DNA of 21,584 bases from IMG/VR virus record IMGVR_UViG_3300046722_000164, positions 1 to 21,584 of that record, one strand, 5' to 3'. Shown here one piece after another: positions 11,965 to 18,674 of the stretch (within the stretch, counting starts at the first letter, position 1; every line of letters begins with the position of its first letter). A program made the translations under genes and the position numbers. The DNA comes from a virus. The notes under the pieces were generated by a model that was given only the letters and a program-made list of their open reading frames with translations, was not told where the DNA came from and did not search any database.

Positions 11965-13434
11965 ATGACACCCAGAGCGTTCGGACGCGCGGCCTTGCGC
12001 CACGCTATCCGCAATCATCCTGACATGCTTTCCGCCTTTCCGCAGGGTTCGCGGGCGGTCGGAAGCCTTACCATCAAAGAACTATTGGCGCTGGCCAGCA
12101 AACTAGGGCTTGACGGCGCCACCATCCTAAACACCGCGCGCAAGGCCCATGCTGAAACGCTAGGCGTTGCCAGTGCGGCGGACGAGCCCGAGGGGGACGA
12201 GCCCGCAGACGAGCCCGAGGGCGAGGGAACCGAGATTGACCCCATAGACGCCGAAGTTGCCGCTATTCGCGATGACATAACCCGGAACGGTTTCGGCGCT
12301 TTGGACGAGCGTTTGCGTGAACTGGTGCGCGAGGCTCGCAAGCCGGCTGTTGAGGTTCCGGTTGTAGCGGCTGTCACCCATGGGATTGTGCAGTCTCGCC
12401 CCACCGGTAAGACCGTGACCTGGGGCGCTGCCTTTGGCGTGACCGGTGCGAACGCGAACAAGACCGCCCAGCTGTGGGACGGTGCGCACCCTGACACGCC
12501 CAAGGTCGACCCGCTTTACGTGTTTCCCGAGCGCGAGACCGTCATTGCCCTGACGCAAATTGCACGGGGTCGCAACGTCTACACGTTCGGTCCGGCGGGA
12601 ACTGGCAAAACGGACTTCGTCGAACAACTCGCAGCAAGGCTGGGGCGCCCGTATGCGTTGATCTCATGCGACGCATCAACGGACGGTCCAACACTTGTGG
12701 GGATGACCGTGCCCGAGGGGGACAAAGTCGGTTGGCAAGATGGCCAGTTGACGCGTGCCATTCAGACCGCAGGCTGCATCCTATGCATTGACGAACCATC
12801 CTTGGCGCGGCCAGGGGCGCTATTCGTTTTGCAGAATGTTCTCGCAAAGCGCGTTCTGTGGTTAGGCGAACGCGAGGGACGCCGCATCAACGTCGCCCCT
12901 GGTGTCGTATTCCTGACAACCGATAACACCAATGGACTGGGAGGGGGTGCACGCCGCGGATACACCGACACAAACCGGTTAAATATGGCTTACCTTGACC
13001 GCTTTGGCGCGCGAATTGACTTCCACTTTCTGCCGGAAATGCAGGAAATATCCGTTGTCTGCTCCCGCGTATCAGGGTGCACGCCAGCCCTCGCCGAGTT
13101 GCTGGTGAAGGCTGCCACGCTGACGCGTGCCGCAGCTGACGCCGAACAAATCACCGCGGGGATAGGACTGCGGCGCTTGTTCGCCTGGGCAGAATTGTTG
13201 ACGGACGGGATCAACCCGGACGACGCATTCCTTGTGTCCATCCTCAACGCCACACCCGATCAGGACAAGGAAACAATCCGCCAGCAATGCTCGCTCGCAA
13301 TCGACGCGTCGACCGTTGCGCGTGCACTCGCCATGCATGGGCAGACCAACACGCGCCAGGGCGTTGACCCGAGCGTATCCAATCCCACTGAAGCCGGGCG
13401 CCGTGCGGCGGCTGACTTTCGCCTCGCCAACTAA
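11965..13434 (+). CDS. MoxR/CobS-like AAA+ ATPase
   Basis: 489 residues from the ATG at 11965, chosen because AAGGA lies 9 bases upstream and earlier in-frame starts fall in the divergent promoter or gene. Residues 1-140 are a non-ATPase extension with an acidic EPEGDEPADEPEGEG stretch, possibly a partner-docking or flexible arm. The AAA+ core follows: Walker A GPAGTGKT (209-216), substrate-pore region STDGPTLVGMTVPE, Walker B CILCIDEPS (D276, E277), sensor 1 LTTDNTNG and LDRFG, the usual arginine-finger context. This is the class of MoxR and of the cobaltochelatase ATPase CobS, which work with a VWA partner to remodel a protein. Here the partner is the next gene, 14 bases downstream. No magnesium- or cobalt-chelatase large subunit is present, so a cobalamin role is unlikely. 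Confidence 0.9.
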   Translation: MTPRAFGRAALRHAIRNHPDMLSAFPQGSRAVGSLTIKELLALASKLGLDGATILNTARKAHAETLGVASAADEPEGDEPADEPEGEGTEIDPIDAEVAAIRDDITRNGFGALDERLRELVREARKPAVEVPVVAAVTHGIVQSRPTGKTVTWGAAFGVTGANANKTAQLWDGAHPDTPKVDPLYVFPERETVIALTQIARGRNVYTFGPAGTGKTDFVEQLAARLGRPYALISCDASTDGPTLVGMTVPEGDKVGWQDGQLTRAIQTAGCILCIDEPSLARPGALFVLQNVLAKRVLWLGEREGRRINVAPGVVFLTTDNTNGLGGGARRGYTDTNRLNMAYLDRFGARIDFHFLPEMQEISVVCSRVSGCTPALAELLVKAATLTRAAADAEQITAGIGLRRLFAWAELLTDGINPDDAFLVSILNATPDQDKETIRQQCSLAIDASTVARALAMHGQTNTRQGVDPSVSNPTEAGRRAAADFRLAN

Positions 13435-13448
13435 GGGAAACACCACAA

Positions 13449-15437
13449 ATGCCGATGTATCGTGAAATCGTGGCCGCGGCGGGAGACACCGCAACCGCCA
13501 TTCTAAGACAACGCACCCGACAGATGCACCAAGTCATCGTCACCACCAACGGCGGGAGCACGGCTAGCGTGAATTGGGGGCATAACGTAGCAGTCACCTT
13601 GAACCTCCCCACCCTGCCCGCCGATACCATGCTGACGCGTGCCGAAGCTGACCGCATCGTCGGTTATATCGCCCATGAATGTTGTCATGTCATGCACACA
13701 GACTGGAACGCATGGATGCGCGCCGTTCACGCGAGTGCCGAGGTCAAACATCTGACGAATTGTCTTGAGGATGTAAGGATCGAGCGCGCGGAAATCGAAG
13801 CCGGGCACTACCCAGCTTTGCGCGGGTTGCTGGGTTCACTAGTGACCCAGAAACACGCCGAAGCCCTAGCCAAGGCGAAGGCCCAGAGTGTGACCATTGG
13901 GACCGAGCGTGCCCACTTCCCGTATGTGTGCGCCGTGCTGGGACGGCTCGGGAATGGCTACAGCATCCCCACAGCCCATGCCTTGGAGCGCGACCTATCC
14001 CCCGCGGTGCGGCGGCTGGTGACCTATGCCTTGCGCAAACTGCCAGGGTGCCAGAACACCGAAGCCGTGCGGCGGCTGGCCATACGGTTGTGCGAGATGG
14101 CGCACAAGGAACGCCAGGAAGCCCAGCAGAAGCCCCAGGAGCCCCAGCAGGGCCAGGGCGAACGCCAGAAGGCCCAGGAGGGCCAGGGCGAACCCCAGGA
14201 GGCCCAGGAGGGCGAGGGCGAGCCCCATGAGGCCCAGAAGGCCCAGGAGGGCGAGGGCGAGCCCCAGGACGCCCAGGAGGGCGAGGGCGGGCCCCAGGAC
14301 GCCCAGGAGGGCGAGGGCGAGGGCGAGGGCGAGCCCCAGGAGGCCCAGGAGGGCCAGGAGGGCCAAGGCACGCCCCAGGAGGCCCAGGAGGGCCAGGAGG
14401 GCCAAGGCACGCCCCAGGAGGCCCAGGAGGGCCAGAGCGAGGCCATAGGTGACCAGCCGGGCGCTGGTAGCGACCAAAGCACGGGCGGGGCACCCGAGCC
14501 CGAGCCCGAGCCCGAGGGCGAGCCTATCGACCCTGACACCATGCAGGACATGGTCCGCGCGCTGGCCGAACGAAACGGGATTGAGGACCCGGACGGCCCG
14601 CGCGAGCATTATTCCCACCTGTTGCCGCTATGCCGTGTCGTGCAGGTGCGAGTTCAACGCTTTCCCGCCGACATGAATACCCATGCCGTGCAGACGCTCA
14701 ATAGCGCCATGCCCCGATGCGGCCTGTTGCATGGGCAGGTCGCGCGGATGCTGGTGGCGGATGAGCAATCCCGCCGCACCAATCACGAGACCAGCGGACG
14801 GCTAGACCGTCGCGCGCTGGTGCGGATGCGGACGGGTGCGCCCGACGTTTACGCCCATCGCGAGAACACCCCTGCCGTGCTGACCGCGCTGGTGTTGCTG
14901 GTAGACCAGTCATCCAGCATGGACATGGGCGAGCGTATGCCAATGACCCGGCTGGCCACATGGGCGCTGGTGAAGGCCGCAGAAGATGCGGGCGCCAAGG
15001 TGGCGGTTGTCGGTTTCACTTCGCCGAGTGGCGCTGGCTATGACGAGTGCGACCTACGCACCATGAAGGACTGGGACACCCCGGCACGCGATGCCGCCGC
15101 GCGCATCGCCACCATGGGAACCTTCATGGGCACGCCCCTCGCTCCTGCCATCATCACGGGGGCGGAGATGACCCGGGAGGTTGCGCACTGCACCCGCCGC
15201 ATCGTCATGGCGCTGACCGATGGCCAGTGCAATTTCAGGGCGGAAGCCGTGACCAGCGCCTGCCGCATCGCCGCCAGTATGGGGGTTGAAGCCGTCGGCA
15301 TCGGCATGAACTGCGAGAAGGTTATCAAGGCCTTCCCCGATGGCTACAGCGTGAATATCGAAGATATGAACCAGCTTGCCGCAACCGGCCTGGGGACCCT
15401 GGTGCGGATGCTGGAGGACGCCGACCGCGGGCGCTAG
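13449..15437 (+). CDS. CobT-like VWA protein with HExxH motif and repeat linker
   Basis: 662 residues; AAGGGAAA precedes the ATG at 13449. Three parts are visible. Residues 1-220 are a zincin-like domain with HECCH (76-80) and NCLEDVRIE (104-112), the HExxH...E arrangement of metallopeptidase-like N-termini found in some VWA proteins. Residues about 221-360 are a low-complexity linker of QEAQEGEGEP-type repeats, strongly acidic. Residues about 375-662 hold a VWA domain whose MIDAS is complete: DQSSS (D486, S488, S490), T562 in MGTPLAP and TD at 590-591. VWA domains of this class dock onto a hexameric MoxR/CobS-type ATPase, here the preceding gene. Whether the HExxH site is catalytic or structural cannot be told from sequence. 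Confidence 0.9.
   Translation: MPMYREIVAAAGDTATAILRQRTRQMHQVIVTTNGGSTASVNWGHNVAVTLNLPTLPADTMLTRAEADRIVGYIAHECCHVMHTDWNAWMRAVHASAEVKHLTNCLEDVRIERAEIEAGHYPALRGLLGSLVTQKHAEALAKAKAQSVTIGTERAHFPYVCAVLGRLGNGYSIPTAHALERDLSPAVRRLVTYALRKLPGCQNTEAVRRLAIRLCEMAHKERQEAQQKPQEPQQGQGERQKAQEGQGEPQEAQEGEGEPHEAQKAQEGEGEPQDAQEGEGGPQDAQEGEGEGEGEPQEAQEGQEGQGTPQEAQEGQEGQGTPQEAQEGQSEAIGDQPGAGSDQSTGGAPEPEPEPEGEPIDPDTMQDMVRALAERNGIEDPDGPREHYSHLLPLCRVVQVRVQRFPADMNTHAVQTLNSAMPRCGLLHGQVARMLVADEQSRRTNHETSGRLDRRALVRMRTGAPDVYAHRENTPAVLTALVLLVDQSSSMDMGERMPMTRLATWALVKAAEDAGAKVAVVGFTSPSGAGYDECDLRTMKDWDTPARDAAARIATMGTFMGTPLAPAIITGAEMTREVAHCTRRIVMALTDGQCNFRAEAVTSACRIAASMGVEAVGIGMNCEKVIKAFPDGYSVNIEDMNQLAATGLGTLVRMLEDADRGR
14341..14440 (+). 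repeat. 39-bp tandem repeat in the VWA linker
   Basis: Identical 39-base units occupy 14341-14379 and 14380-14418, followed by a partial third. Each encodes the 13-residue unit EAQEGQEGQGTPQ in rotated phase. Less regular 6-18-base repeats of the same type extend from about 14105 to 14525. The antisense strand translates to Leu/Ala- or Pro-rich low-complexity strings that are not genes. Confidence 0.85.
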
Positions 15438-15476
15438 AGCCCGCGGACTAATCCCGGGGGCGATGGCGTCCCCGGG
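15425..15476 (+). other. Two tandem hairpins after the VWA stop
   Basis: The first is a perfect 8-bp stem, CCGCGGGC (15425-15432) with GCCCGCGG (15439-15446), and its 6-base loop contains the VWA stop codon. The second is a perfect 7-bp stem, CCCGGGG (15453-15459) with CCCCGGG (15470-15476). No T-tract follows, so these are more likely mRNA-stabilising, attenuating or pause structures between the VWA gene and the small genes than intrinsic terminators. Confidence 0.5.
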
Positions 15477-15504
15477 CACTCACCACCCACGGAGCACCAC
15501 CACC

Positions 15505-15702
15505 ATGACCCCGATCAATCAGTCACGCCACCTGCAATTCCCCTGGAACCGCAAGGGTGCCGCGCGGGAGCACGTCCAAGACTTCCTCGCCCTGGCGGAA
15601 TACCAGACCACCAACATGCCGCAAGACCAGCGTGCCGGCGCACGCGTGACCCTGGCATGGCTTCGCCGGCTGGTGGACATGCAGAAGGACCATCTGCCGT
15701 GA
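15505..15702 (+). CDS. Small unknown protein (65 aa)
   Basis: 65 residues from the ATG at 15505. The sequence is helical and mildly basic (QFPWNRKGAAREHVQDFLALAEYQ, then QRAGARVTLAWLRRLVDMQ), without cysteines or membrane segments. It follows the VWA gene after two hairpins and overlaps the next gene by four bases (GTGA), so it appears to belong to the same rightward unit. GGAG lies 10 bases upstream. No family is recognised. It could be a small accessory or adaptor of the AAA+/VWA pair, but nothing in its sequence shows this. Confidence 0.6.
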   Translation: MTPINQSRHLQFPWNRKGAAREHVQDFLALAEYQTTNMPQDQRAGARVTLAWLRRLVDMQKDHLP

Positions 15703-15875
15703 CCGGCGCCCAGTGCCTCTACTACCTCGCCGTGGTGCTGATCGGGACAGCGTTGGCGCGGACCTGGGACGTGGGCCTGCTCTATGGCGGCCACCCCGGC
15801 TGGACCTTTCCCGCCGTGGTGGTGACCGGCATTGTCTGGCGCTTCATCTACCGCGATTTCTGGAACAGCCTCTAA
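15699..15875 (+). CDS. Small membrane protein (58 aa)
   Basis: 58 residues from a GTG at 15699 that overlaps the previous stop as GTGA; an ATG further upstream in the same frame would overlap the previous gene by 45 bases and is less likely. Two hydrophobic helices (about residues 5-20 and 36-50) flank a short polar loop RTWDVGLLYGGHPG, and the tail is WRFIYRDFWNSL. It is the last gene of the rightward unit; a strong hairpin begins 3 bases after its stop. No family is recognised. A two-helix protein at this place could anchor the unit to the membrane or be a small lysis or exclusion factor, but that is a guess. Confidence 0.55.
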   Translation: MTGAQCLYYLAVVLIGTALARTWDVGLLYGGHPGWTFPAVVVTGIVWRFIYRDFWNSL

Positions 15876-16226: not shown

Positions 16227-18674
16227 CTAGTGCTTTGTGTTGTGTCCGATGGACGGACCCAAAAGGTTTGCGACTTTGGCTATTTCGTCGCGACCCAACA
16301 GTTTGTATTCTTTAACAAATCGTAACGCCCACACGCGGGTCTGCCGACCTTGCACGAGCACGGGCGACCCATCAAACAGTTGTGTTCCACCCACCCGAGC
16401 CAACCGTCTGCCAATGCTGACGGGGTGCAACTGCGTCGGGCTCACGCTGAACCGTCCCTCGCGCTGCGCCTGCAACATGCGGTCCCTGACAAAGTCCACC
16501 GTGACCACATCGGGCATCGCCTCGACCGCCGGATAAACCGCCGCGATGGTCTCGGTCAGCCACACATCCACCGGGTCCTGGCTTTCCTCGATCATCACCT
16601 GCTTGGCCTCGGTCATCGGCGCAATCCCGCTCAGCACGGCCTTGCGCGCGTCGGGCATGGTCTCCCAGCGGCACATCAGCCACTCGGCCACCAGCGCCAG
16701 CCCCTCCTGCTGCTCGAACCACCGCACCAGCCGCGCATAGTCCCCTGATGGCCAGCGCGTGACGTGCGCGCGATCCAGCACCAGGAACCGGCGGTCCCCT
16801 TCCTCCAGCCGTAGCGGCACCGCCTCGTTCGACGTGATCCATGCCATCACCGTGTTGCGGGCTTGGTAGGGCACGCCGTATTTCGGATTGATCGGCAACC
16901 ACTCCTTGCCCAGGTCGAACGCGTGTTTCAGCCGCGCCATCTGGTCGTGCGGCGTGAACGACCCCCGCGTGGTCTGCCGGGTCTCGTTCATCTGCACCAA
17001 GCGCAGCGCCATCCACTCCGAGAACCCTGACGCCATCGCGTCCCCGCGCAGCACTTGGGCCTGCTGCTCGCCCAGTGCCTTCATCACCGGCAACAGGATC
17101 AGGTCCTTGCCAATCCCCTGCTGCCCGGTCACCACCACCTGCCAGCCGCCTTTGATCCCGCTCCCCAGCACCATCGCCAGCCAGTCCAGCACAATCCGGC
17201 CAAGCTGCCATTCCTCCAGGGTCGCGCCACCGATCACATGCCAGAACAGGTCCAGCCAGGGTCTGACCGCGTCGTCGTCCACTGGCGAGCCAGCCAGTGG
17301 ACGGGGGACCGGGCGCCACAGGTTGCACAGCCGCTGGCGATTGTGCAGCACGATCTGTGCCTCGCCCGGCCACCAGATCACCCCGTCCACATGCCGCCCT
17401 CGCCGGTCATGCAGATACCAAGTGCCCGGTGGCACCAGCCGCCGCTGCCGTCCCGTTCCGGTCATCGGCAGCACATCAGCCAGCCGGCGTAACCACTCGG
17501 TGTTGATCGCCCGGTCCTTGAGCATGACCTGCTTGTCCACGTCCCAGAACGCGTCCCGCGGACGCAGGTAGACGAACCGCGCGAAGAACGCCCGCTCGTC
17601 GTCGGTCTCCACATGCGCCGGCGGCAACGGCACATCCGCCGGATCCACCGGATCGAACGCCACGTCGATCAGCCCCGAGAGCCCGCCACTCTCCTCGCGA
17701 AGCATTTCCTCCAGCCTCTGTTCGACATGCTCGGCGGTGCGGTCCCGGCAGTGCCCGTGGTGGCACTCGAAGCGCTGCAACACGGGGACATACGCCGTGC
17801 CCGTGGTGGCGCGGTCGGTGTGCTCGTCCACCCACGGGCATAAGATGTCATACCCGCGGCCCATCGCCGTGGCGCGTGGTCCCCCGAGCACCAGGTCGAG
17901 CTTGCGCATCGCCTTGAACAGGATGTCCTGCTCGGCGAGCTCGTCGATCGCTGCATCACCCGCGAGCGACCTGGCTGGAGCCGGGTGGGCAAAACCCTCG
18001 ACAGGTTTTGCCCCATCGACTTCGCAGGGGACACCATCGGGGGACACGGGGGACACGCCCAGCCTGGCGCAGATCTCGGGTGTGAGATCCAGCACCAGGT
18101 TCGGCGCCCAGTGAGTGAGCCCCACCACGAACCCACCTATCGCTGCGAATGCCGGCTTGTGGTTGCGCCCCACCGGCAGCCGGAGATAGCGCGTGGCATC
18201 CCGCATCCCCGGATCCTTGCCGTCCTGGCCCACCAGGAAGCCCACCAGCGCCTTGGTGAAGGCTTTGACCCATCCAGCGTCCCGCACCAGCGTGGCCAGC
18301 CTGTAGCCCCACTGCTCGTTCCCTGGCGAGGTCTCCATCCGGTAGGTCGGCACCCCCAGCAGGTCCACCACCTTAGCCGGGTCGATCTTAGGCCCAACGT
18401 CGTCCACGCCGAGCACCACCCAGCGCTCCAGCACGGGTCCCTGGCGGACCTTGCCGCCGATGAACAAGCTGACCGTAAAATAGTTGTTGTCCCCCGGGCG
18501 CAGCCGGCGCGTGGCCGCGGGACCGCCGCCCCAGGCGCCACCACGCTTCGGGTCCCCGCGGAACCCGGTAACGTGCATCCGCCCCCAGTCGGCGTCACCG
18601 GCGATCGCACGGAGGAATTGCTCGTTGGTGTCGGGCCAGGGCAAAGCGGGGGCGTTGCCATCCGTGCGTGTCAT
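16227..18674 (-). CDS. Phage primase-helicase (AEP-like primase plus SF3/DUF5906 helicase)
   Basis: 815 residues; GGGAG lies upstream of the ATG at 18674. Residues about 60-200 resemble a RepB/AEP-type primase: a GVDDVG acidic pair (D91, D92), PTYRMETSPGNEQWGY (109-124) and RYLRLPVGRNHK (162-173). A putative zinc-binding cluster follows (Cys279, Cys304, Cys309 with nearby His, in DILCPW and FECHHGHC). The C-terminal half is a D5/DUF5906-type SF3 helicase: Walker A GQQGIGKD (517-524), Walker B-like LVQMNE (559-564), then WITSNEAVPLRLEEGDRRFLVLD. It would unwind and prime DNA at the element's own origin. The gene contains two copies of the iteron core, and a third lies 122 bases upstream of its start. 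The exact sub-family is uncertain. Confidence 0.9.
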   Translation of the reverse strand: MTRTDGNAPALPWPDTNEQFLRAIAGDADWGRMHVTGFRGDPKRGGAWGGGPAATRRLRPGDNNYFTVSLFIGGKVRQGPVLERWVVLGVDDVGPKIDPAKVVDLLGVPTYRMETSPGNEQWGYRLATLVRDAGWVKAFTKALVGFLVGQDGKDPGMRDATRYLRLPVGRNHKPAFAAIGGFVVGLTHWAPNLVLDLTPEICARLGVSPVSPDGVPCEVDGAKPVEGFAHPAPARSLAGDAAIDELAEQDILFKAMRKLDLVLGGPRATAMGRGYDILCPWVDEHTDRATTGTAYVPVLQRFECHHGHCRDRTAEHVEQRLEEMLREESGGLSGLIDVAFDPVDPADVPLPPAHVETDDERAFFARFVYLRPRDAFWDVDKQVMLKDRAINTEWLRRLADVLPMTGTGRQRRLVPPGTWYLHDRRGRHVDGVIWWPGEAQIVLHNRQRLCNLWRPVPRPLAGSPVDDDAVRPWLDLFWHVIGGATLEEWQLGRIVLDWLAMVLGSGIKGGWQVVVTGQQGIGKDLILLPVMKALGEQQAQVLRGDAMASGFSEWMALRLVQMNETRQTTRGSFTPHDQMARLKHAFDLGKEWLPINPKYGVPYQARNTVMAWITSNEAVPLRLEEGDRRFLVLDRAHVTRWPSGDYARLVRWFEQQEGLALVAEWLMCRWETMPDARKAVLSGIAPMTEAKQVMIEESQDPVDVWLTETIAAVYPAVEAMPDVVTVDFVRDRMLQAQREGRFSVSPTQLHPVSIGRRLARVGGTQLFDGSPVLVQGRQTRVWALRFVKEYKLLGRDEIAKVANLLGPSIGHNTKH
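16670..16683 (+). repeat. Iteron copy inside the primase-helicase gene
   Basis: GGCACATCAGCCAC, identical over 14 bases to the first two array units and in the same orientation. On the coding strand it encodes W-L-M-C within EWLMCRW. Confidence 0.7.
17471..17482 (+). repeat. Second iteron core inside the primase-helicase gene
   Basis: GCACATCAGCCA, 12 bases of the iteron core in the same orientation. Here it is read in a different frame, encoding the L-A-D-V-L part of RRLADVLP, so protein similarity does not explain it. Confidence 0.6.

Follow-up and report, generated by a model that had tools for sequence, protein, structure and literature searches.

A predicted ATP-driven remodelling pair with a zincin-like domain as the usual resident of an accessory locus in temperate phages

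The DNA analysed here (the window) is the 21,584-base virus record IMGVR_UViG_3300046722_000164, from a soil phage; nothing close to it at the DNA level turned up in the phage collection searched. Two of its genes encode a CobS/MoxR-type AAA+ ATPase and a VWA protein with an N-terminal zincin-like domain. The best explanation for this pair, to which we assign a probability of about one half, is an ATP-driven remodeller made of two proteins and equipped with a tethered zincin-like domain. An HExxH motif is intact in the phage lineage and absent at the aligned place from 25 cellular CobT proteins, which provides a sequence rule separating the two and speaks for proteolysis or metal binding more than for chelation. 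Both AAA+/VWA pairs that carry a metallopeptidase domain (PMC7824862) and viral cobST genes (PMC8651126) are already known; what is added here is the HExxH contrast with CobT, a locus that is fixed in place yet swappable in content, and the absence of the pair from the nearest packaging relative.

The ATPase gene (positions 11965 to 13434, 489 aa) and the VWA gene (13449 to 15437, 662 aa) both lie on the plus strand. The original prediction, that they are 14 bases apart and have intact Walker and MIDAS residues, is confirmed by the coordinates and by the invariant residues described below, and its residue numbers (E277, D486 and E77) are correct. It had also stated that all other genes run leftward, and in the window every neighbour with an assignment (portal, terminase, tail-fibre-like, primase, integrase, excisionase-like and repressor-like) is indeed on the minus strand; as a property of the system the statement does not hold, the pair running the same way as the flanking genes in five relatives (L007, L009, L010, L011 and L012). 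From the right end of the window, and reading leftward, come repressor-like, excisionase-like and integrase genes, two genes of unlabelled function and a primase-like gene (DUF5906, 16227 to 18674, minus strand), which is one boundary of the locus. Beyond the pair lie ORF11424 (11424 to 11864, minus strand, divergent from the ATPase gene), ORF11065, tail-fibre-like and other genes, the large terminase and the portal; the names repressor, excisionase, integrase, terminase, tail fibre and portal come from reading the sequences and from the annotation of relatives. ORF11424, in which C33, C36, C47 and H50 are near-invariant, is a conserved flank, kept also where the pair is absent. No sigma-70 promoter of the pair's own was found between 11000 and 19000, where 1.2 would be expected.

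The ATPase matches AAA_5 (3.3e-15), CbbQ_C (7.3e-8) and PHROG 249 (phrog_249, 'porphyrin biosynthesis', 1.5e-42), and its profile retrieves Midasin (2.7e-48), CobS (6e-41), CbbQ (1.9e-30) and NorQ (1.9e-29) among PDB sequences. Its Walker A is GPAGTGKT (residues 209-216) and its Walker B is D276/E277; G209, P210, A211, G212, G214, K215, T216, D276 and E277 are invariant in 11/11 aligned relatives, and T213, within Walker A, is not. The window pair has the AAA+ core with both Walker motifs, and the adjoining VWA protein with a complete MIDAS (DxSxS, T, D), that characterize MoxR/CobS AAA+ proteins with a VWA partner. A related ATPase is found in 239 phage records of one collection, and among the ATPase-bearing records listed the labels are mostly CobS, porphyrin or cobalamin synthesis.

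In the VWA protein, the N-terminal domain (residues 1-225, 13449 to 14123) contains HECCH at residues 76-80, followed by E107-D108 and E112. These segments (HECCH and NCLEDVRIE) had been proposed as signs of a metallopeptidase or metal-binding N-terminus, a reading that was staked on conservation of HExxH in homologues. The motif is intact: H76, E77, H80, E107, D108 and E112 are invariant in 9/9 aligned relatives as well as in all 34 N-domain rows, the relatives sharing about 23-55% identity. HExxH is kept in 40/40 loci that cover it (38 by pattern and 2 by reading; L155, L184, L185 and L187 are repeat views of contigs already counted), and is also present in Mae-Yong1326-1, Roseobacter phage CRP-810 and Rhizobium phage RHph_Y2_11. 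The E after HExxH, a putative third ligand, is found in 39 of the 40 loci, and is a C in L094, one metagenome contig. HExxH and a downstream acidic residue, with its presumed third-ligand role, make the motif zincin-type. Its predicted structure is confident (pLDDT 95.7, pTM 0.91), with helices and three short strands. Foldseek gave no match in the PDB at E <= 0.001, and the fold matches obtained with VIA-align were all weak: DUF885 (Z 6.1), selecase (5.5), 3c37 (5.2), jannalysin (5.1) and SPRTN (4.8), several zincins being among the best ranked. By the guidance of the tool itself the best Z of 6.1 may reflect a common arrangement, and the lower ranks of the list hold TetR-type and other helical proteins. 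Against a viral structure library, significant matches include phage 'CobT' proteins, and VWFA proteins of haloarchaeal tailed viruses match at about 1e-3.

A low-complexity linker rich in E, Q, G and P (approximate limits 14100 to 14560) connects this domain to the VWA domain (modelled as residues 405-662, 14661 to 15434, including the preceding GRLDRR at 450-455). The linker is repetitive at the DNA level between 14100 and 14440, and three contigs (G003, G004 and G014) both start and end within the homologous VWA gene, near the linker, so assembly may have distorted the linker length seen in metagenome contigs. The whole protein matches PHROG 1576 (phrog_1576, no function given, 2.5e-27) and, weakly, the chelatase model TIGR02442 (35.7 bits for a cut-off of 779.45). 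The MIDAS residues D486, S488, S490, T562 and D591 are invariant in 9/9 aligned relatives; in a larger set of 30 rows the MIDAS residues and the G, R, L, D and second R of GRLDRR are invariant throughout. The VWA domain was modelled with a pLDDT of 85.2, falling to 58-64 around GRLDRR, and its best fold match is the MIDAS domain of Rea1 (Z 21.6, rmsd 2.6, 203 aligned residues), followed by the VWA domain of NorD (Z 20.4, rmsd 4.8, 230 aligned). At the sequence level, the domain matches CobT (1.4e-16) and NorD (1e-13).

Cellular CobS and CobT are sequence relatives of the two phage proteins, and the comparison with them separates the two groups. Of 58 alphaproteobacterial genomes, 41 gave a CobT match, and the 25 of these with loci were read for HExxH: none has it at the aligned place, as against 40/40 in phages. 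At this place most CobT proteins have HHDxxxH and then an EQARVE-type segment, where the phage proteins have HExxH and EDVRIE; one CobT (L236) has HEPAH elsewhere in a long ORF, away from the aligned place. TIGR01651 (CobT) and the CobT N-domain model PF06213 did not match the window protein, PF06213 finding a single one of the 34 N-domains, at E 0.2. Likewise, the window ATPase scores 77.9 bits on the CobS model TIGR01650, far below the cut-off of 558.55. By comparison, the Devosia genome that carries the relative L012 has a CobS (640.5 bits) and a CobT (889.7) of its own, both above the cut-offs. Profile comparison of the phage N-domain with Devosia CobT gave a probability of 9% and an E of 0.0037, the alignment running through LPxLP and LEQARVE with a gap over HExxH. 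This is suggestive and falls short of proving common descent; the N-domain of CobT may have arisen by decay of a domain like that of the phage protein.

How constant the pair is was assessed with relatives found by ATPase, VWA, terminase and ORF11424 profiles. A scan of viral contigs with the window ATPase alone gave no relatives, and a two-row profile gave 6 loci. Among the 57 loci examined, 39 show both genes, and in 39/39 the ATPase gene comes first, on the same strand, adjoining the VWA gene; in the other 18 one gene is visible and the stretch ends beside it. The co-occurrence of the two genes, which the original prediction put up for checking, is therefore strict where both can be seen. 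The lineage consists of temperate phages with the pair at one locus, between the primase gene and ORF11424/ORF11065, and the pair-bearing records that carry an integrase are roughly 44-53 kb long. The window and Mae-Yong1326-1 share with most relatives a pair that is oriented opposite to the late genes and the primase gene. ORF11424 is divergent beside the ATPase gene in L007, L009 and L011, where the arrangement looks as if the block had turned as a whole, and not in L060. We considered a phase-variable switch and rejected it: the inverted repeats between 11000 and 16700 are 15 imperfect pairs (70-93% complementary, 14-30 nt), of which one (I4, 23 nt, 74%) loosely brackets the pair block and resembles chance. 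No clear flanking repeats that would account for the orientation of the block were found in the window.

The identities of the ATPase are correlated with those of the VWA protein (r 0.82 over 12 loci). Between near relatives, the mean identity is 56% for the ATPase and VWA proteins, and 37, 35 and 36% for integrase, repressor and primase, the gene sets differing from one compared pair to the next. Such co-varying and better-kept identities agree better with a client that is stable than with an arms race. Two candidates, L003 and ct52p938 (L005), were dropped, as the neighbour of their ATPase is a different, shorter protein lacking VWA motifs in the alignment; at L003:7917-9804 (AB571791) and L005:2396-4851, a related ATPase is followed by this different partner of about 300 aa. 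Among alphaproteobacterial genomes, a prophage search found matches in 3/385 at 1e-15, the only strong one being the Devosia genome that had served as a seed.

Two small genes, one membrane-spanning, had been counted with the pair as a four-gene unit. Both ORFs exist, on the plus strand: sm1 (15505 to 15702, 65 aa from ATG 15505), and sm2 (15699 to 15875, 58 aa from GTG 15699, or 72 aa from 15657), which has one hydrophobic stretch by a simple hydropathy count and whose GTG start would overlap the sm1 stop. They do not belong to a unit, since the downstream small genes differ between phages: among the 25 VWA-primase gaps read, window included, this variable companion sm1 has homologues in two others, L166 and L167 (30% identity in the latter), and sm2 has none in the other 24. 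One small family is present in 9 of the 25 gaps and another in 7. The former has an HLARDxxGLTxCG-like segment and C-terminal cysteines (for example L093:6620-6850, L153:3043-3252 and L162:9858-10163), and a look-alike, recognized by eye, is found at L215:4336-4524, where the pair is gone.

The locus itself is not always occupied by the pair. Using ORF11424 as an anchor we found 27 loci, of which 5 end at the anchor; in 19 of the remaining 22 the ATPase gene adjoins it, a proportion that may be biased upward as 11 of the 12 rows of the anchor profile come from pair-bearing loci. The 3 neighbourhoods without either gene are L215 and L216, which are 99.5% identical to each other, and G001. A set of 18 records was also examined, 5 of them carriers already known; of the 13 whole records that came from the terminase search alone, 5 carry the pair or, at the end of a contig, one of its genes (G003, G004, G006, G008 and G010), 3 have the locus without the pair (G001, G007 and G009), and 5 are incomplete or unclear (G002, G005, G011, G012 and G013). 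Rhizobium phage RHph_N65 (TerL 46%) had no match to the pair. G001 is particularly informative: its contig both begins and ends within the tail-fibre gene, as expected of a circular map, and it is 84% identical to the window in TerL, 79% in the portal, 68% in a tail-fibre fragment, 67% in ORF11065 and 58% in ORF11424. In place of the pair it has a DUF7227 gene (L135:1602-2378, Pfam 4.9e-83) and small ORFs, in the same reversed direction. The pair being absent and its place taken by other genes in G001, and L215 keeping the small-gene look-alike, we conclude that the locus is an accessory operon whose small genes change and whose usual resident is the pair. Since the relative with the nearest terminase lacks both genes, the pair is not essential for this virion type, and such close relatives are ready comparison phages for finding the client. 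At L215:3659-4186, a second repressor-like helix-turn-helix gene, 37% identical to the window repressor, lies between primase and accessory locus.

The question arises as to what such a pair may do. Intact Walker, MIDAS and HExxH...ED motifs, strict pairing, a predicted VWA fold and a confident N-domain model are directly supported, and a mechanism can be proposed from them. The AAA+ protein would form an ATP-hydrolysing ring, with the VWA protein as its adaptor; by its position just before the VWA domain, GRLDRR would be the finger that enters the ring pore, as in NorD and Midasin. The MIDAS site would dock a client protein, and the anatomy suggests that the linker-tethered N-domain could cut or hold this client when the motor twists the VWA domain. 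The client would most likely be either a protein of the host or an early complex of phage proteins, given that the locus is bounded by the primase gene and that the pair is missing from a phage with closely similar packaging genes.

Two known systems are instructive here. Rea1/Midasin also combines AAA+ with a MIDAS domain, the closest in fold to the phage VWA domain, but it is one giant polypeptide in ribosome assembly and is not known to have a zincin part. NorQ-NorD likewise consists of a MoxR hexamer and a VWA partner (PMC13036017, PMC9976466); NorD and the phage protein have the same order of N-domain, linker and VWA domain, a likeness of layout. In the account of PMC13036017, the ring pore holds the VWA finger, and the proposal is that turnover of ATP twists the VWA domain relative to the N-domain, stretching the linker. 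NorD activates a nitric oxide reductase. NorQD and other MoxR/VWA pairs of known function do their work without proteolysis, so the role of HExxH could be to bind metal structurally.

Other scenarios are considered in turn. A bolder version of the remodeller would be an ATP-gated metalloprotease that works in a way not described before, in which the MoxR ring twists a MIDAS-docked client that the tethered zincin then cuts, and of which CobT would be a tamed descendant, its zincin site decayed to HHDxxxH; we regard this as possible but less likely than not.

The pair might instead be a chaperone-protease with a part in assembling or processing the proteins of tail or head. Jumbo phages carry AAA+/vWA pairs with an N-terminal metallopeptidase domain for which a virion role is proposed (PMC7824862). 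A metallopeptidase-type motif domain N-terminal to vWA, beside MoxR, is present here too. This likeness is one of architecture, and the phages differ: the published pairs belong to jumbo phages, the pair described here to integrase-bearing records of the size given above, at an accessory locus. For p618/p892 of Acidianus two-tailed virus, a virion-assembly role is reported according to papers that cite the work. In a minority subgroup (L007, L009, L010 and L012) the pair is in line with the late genes, as such a role would have it. Yet in the subgroup of the window it opposes their direction, and G001, so similar in terminase, portal and tail fibre, does without both genes, as do L215 and L216 in the stretch covered. 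This weakens a required part in virion assembly, assembly being one of the possible functions named in the original prediction; the pair may nevertheless have a merely helpful role, or one redundant with a host chaperone. Overall we find this scenario unlikely.

Equally improbable in our view is a conflict module (superinfection exclusion, anti-phage defence of the lysogen, or counter-defence), in which MoxR-vWA would be an ATP-set switch and the zincin-like domain its effector. Conflict systems built on MoxR-vWA, in which vWA is fused to peptidase domains, have been described (PMC7159879 and PMC12839542), and an accessory locus whose direction is its own in most relatives, and whose content has been exchanged in G001 and L215, would suit one. 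However, no PADLOC model rose above noise (best E 0.003, on the P-loop part only), domain searches revealed no VMAP, iSTAND or other recognizable third component beside the pair, and an occupancy of 19/22 together with slow divergence is unlike fast-changing defence cargo.

Finally, it is very unlikely that the pair acts as cobaltochelatase subunits with host CobN, boosting cobalamin for the phage: this is a published hypothesis (PMC8651126), the nearest named cellular families include CobS and CobT, and the Devosia genome with L012 has CobN, but that genome already owns CobS and CobT, a cobalamin riboswitch is missing, as is any Rfam match, from the 8 sources searched, and CobN (PF02514) was found in 0/21 phage records. 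The last count bears out the predicted lack of a chelatase large subunit and, with the HExxH contrast with CobT, which itself works with CobN, leads us to consider that the pair is probably no cobalt chelatase. PMC8651126 describes cobST clusters in tailed viruses of eight orders, of bacteria and archaea, both genes being present as here, and cyanophage cobT as usually annotated as a peptidase. PMC8651126 and PMC9503304 name the pair cobalt chelatase, against which the evidence speaks for this lineage.

In the accessible literature on the pair in phages, the Mae-Yong1326-1 paper (PMC9503304) is the only one we found that touches this lineage. Its CobS and CobT are 43% and 37% identical to the window pair, with the same locus layout. 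The terminase and pair of this Microcystis phage (L001/L134, OP028995) group with the lineage. Microcystis has a G+C content of about 43%. That of Mae-Yong1326-1 is 71.8%, with best hits in Devosia, Magnetospirillum, Roseicella and Phenylobacterium (PMC9503304), and it may really infect another bacterium that accompanied Microcystis in the culture.
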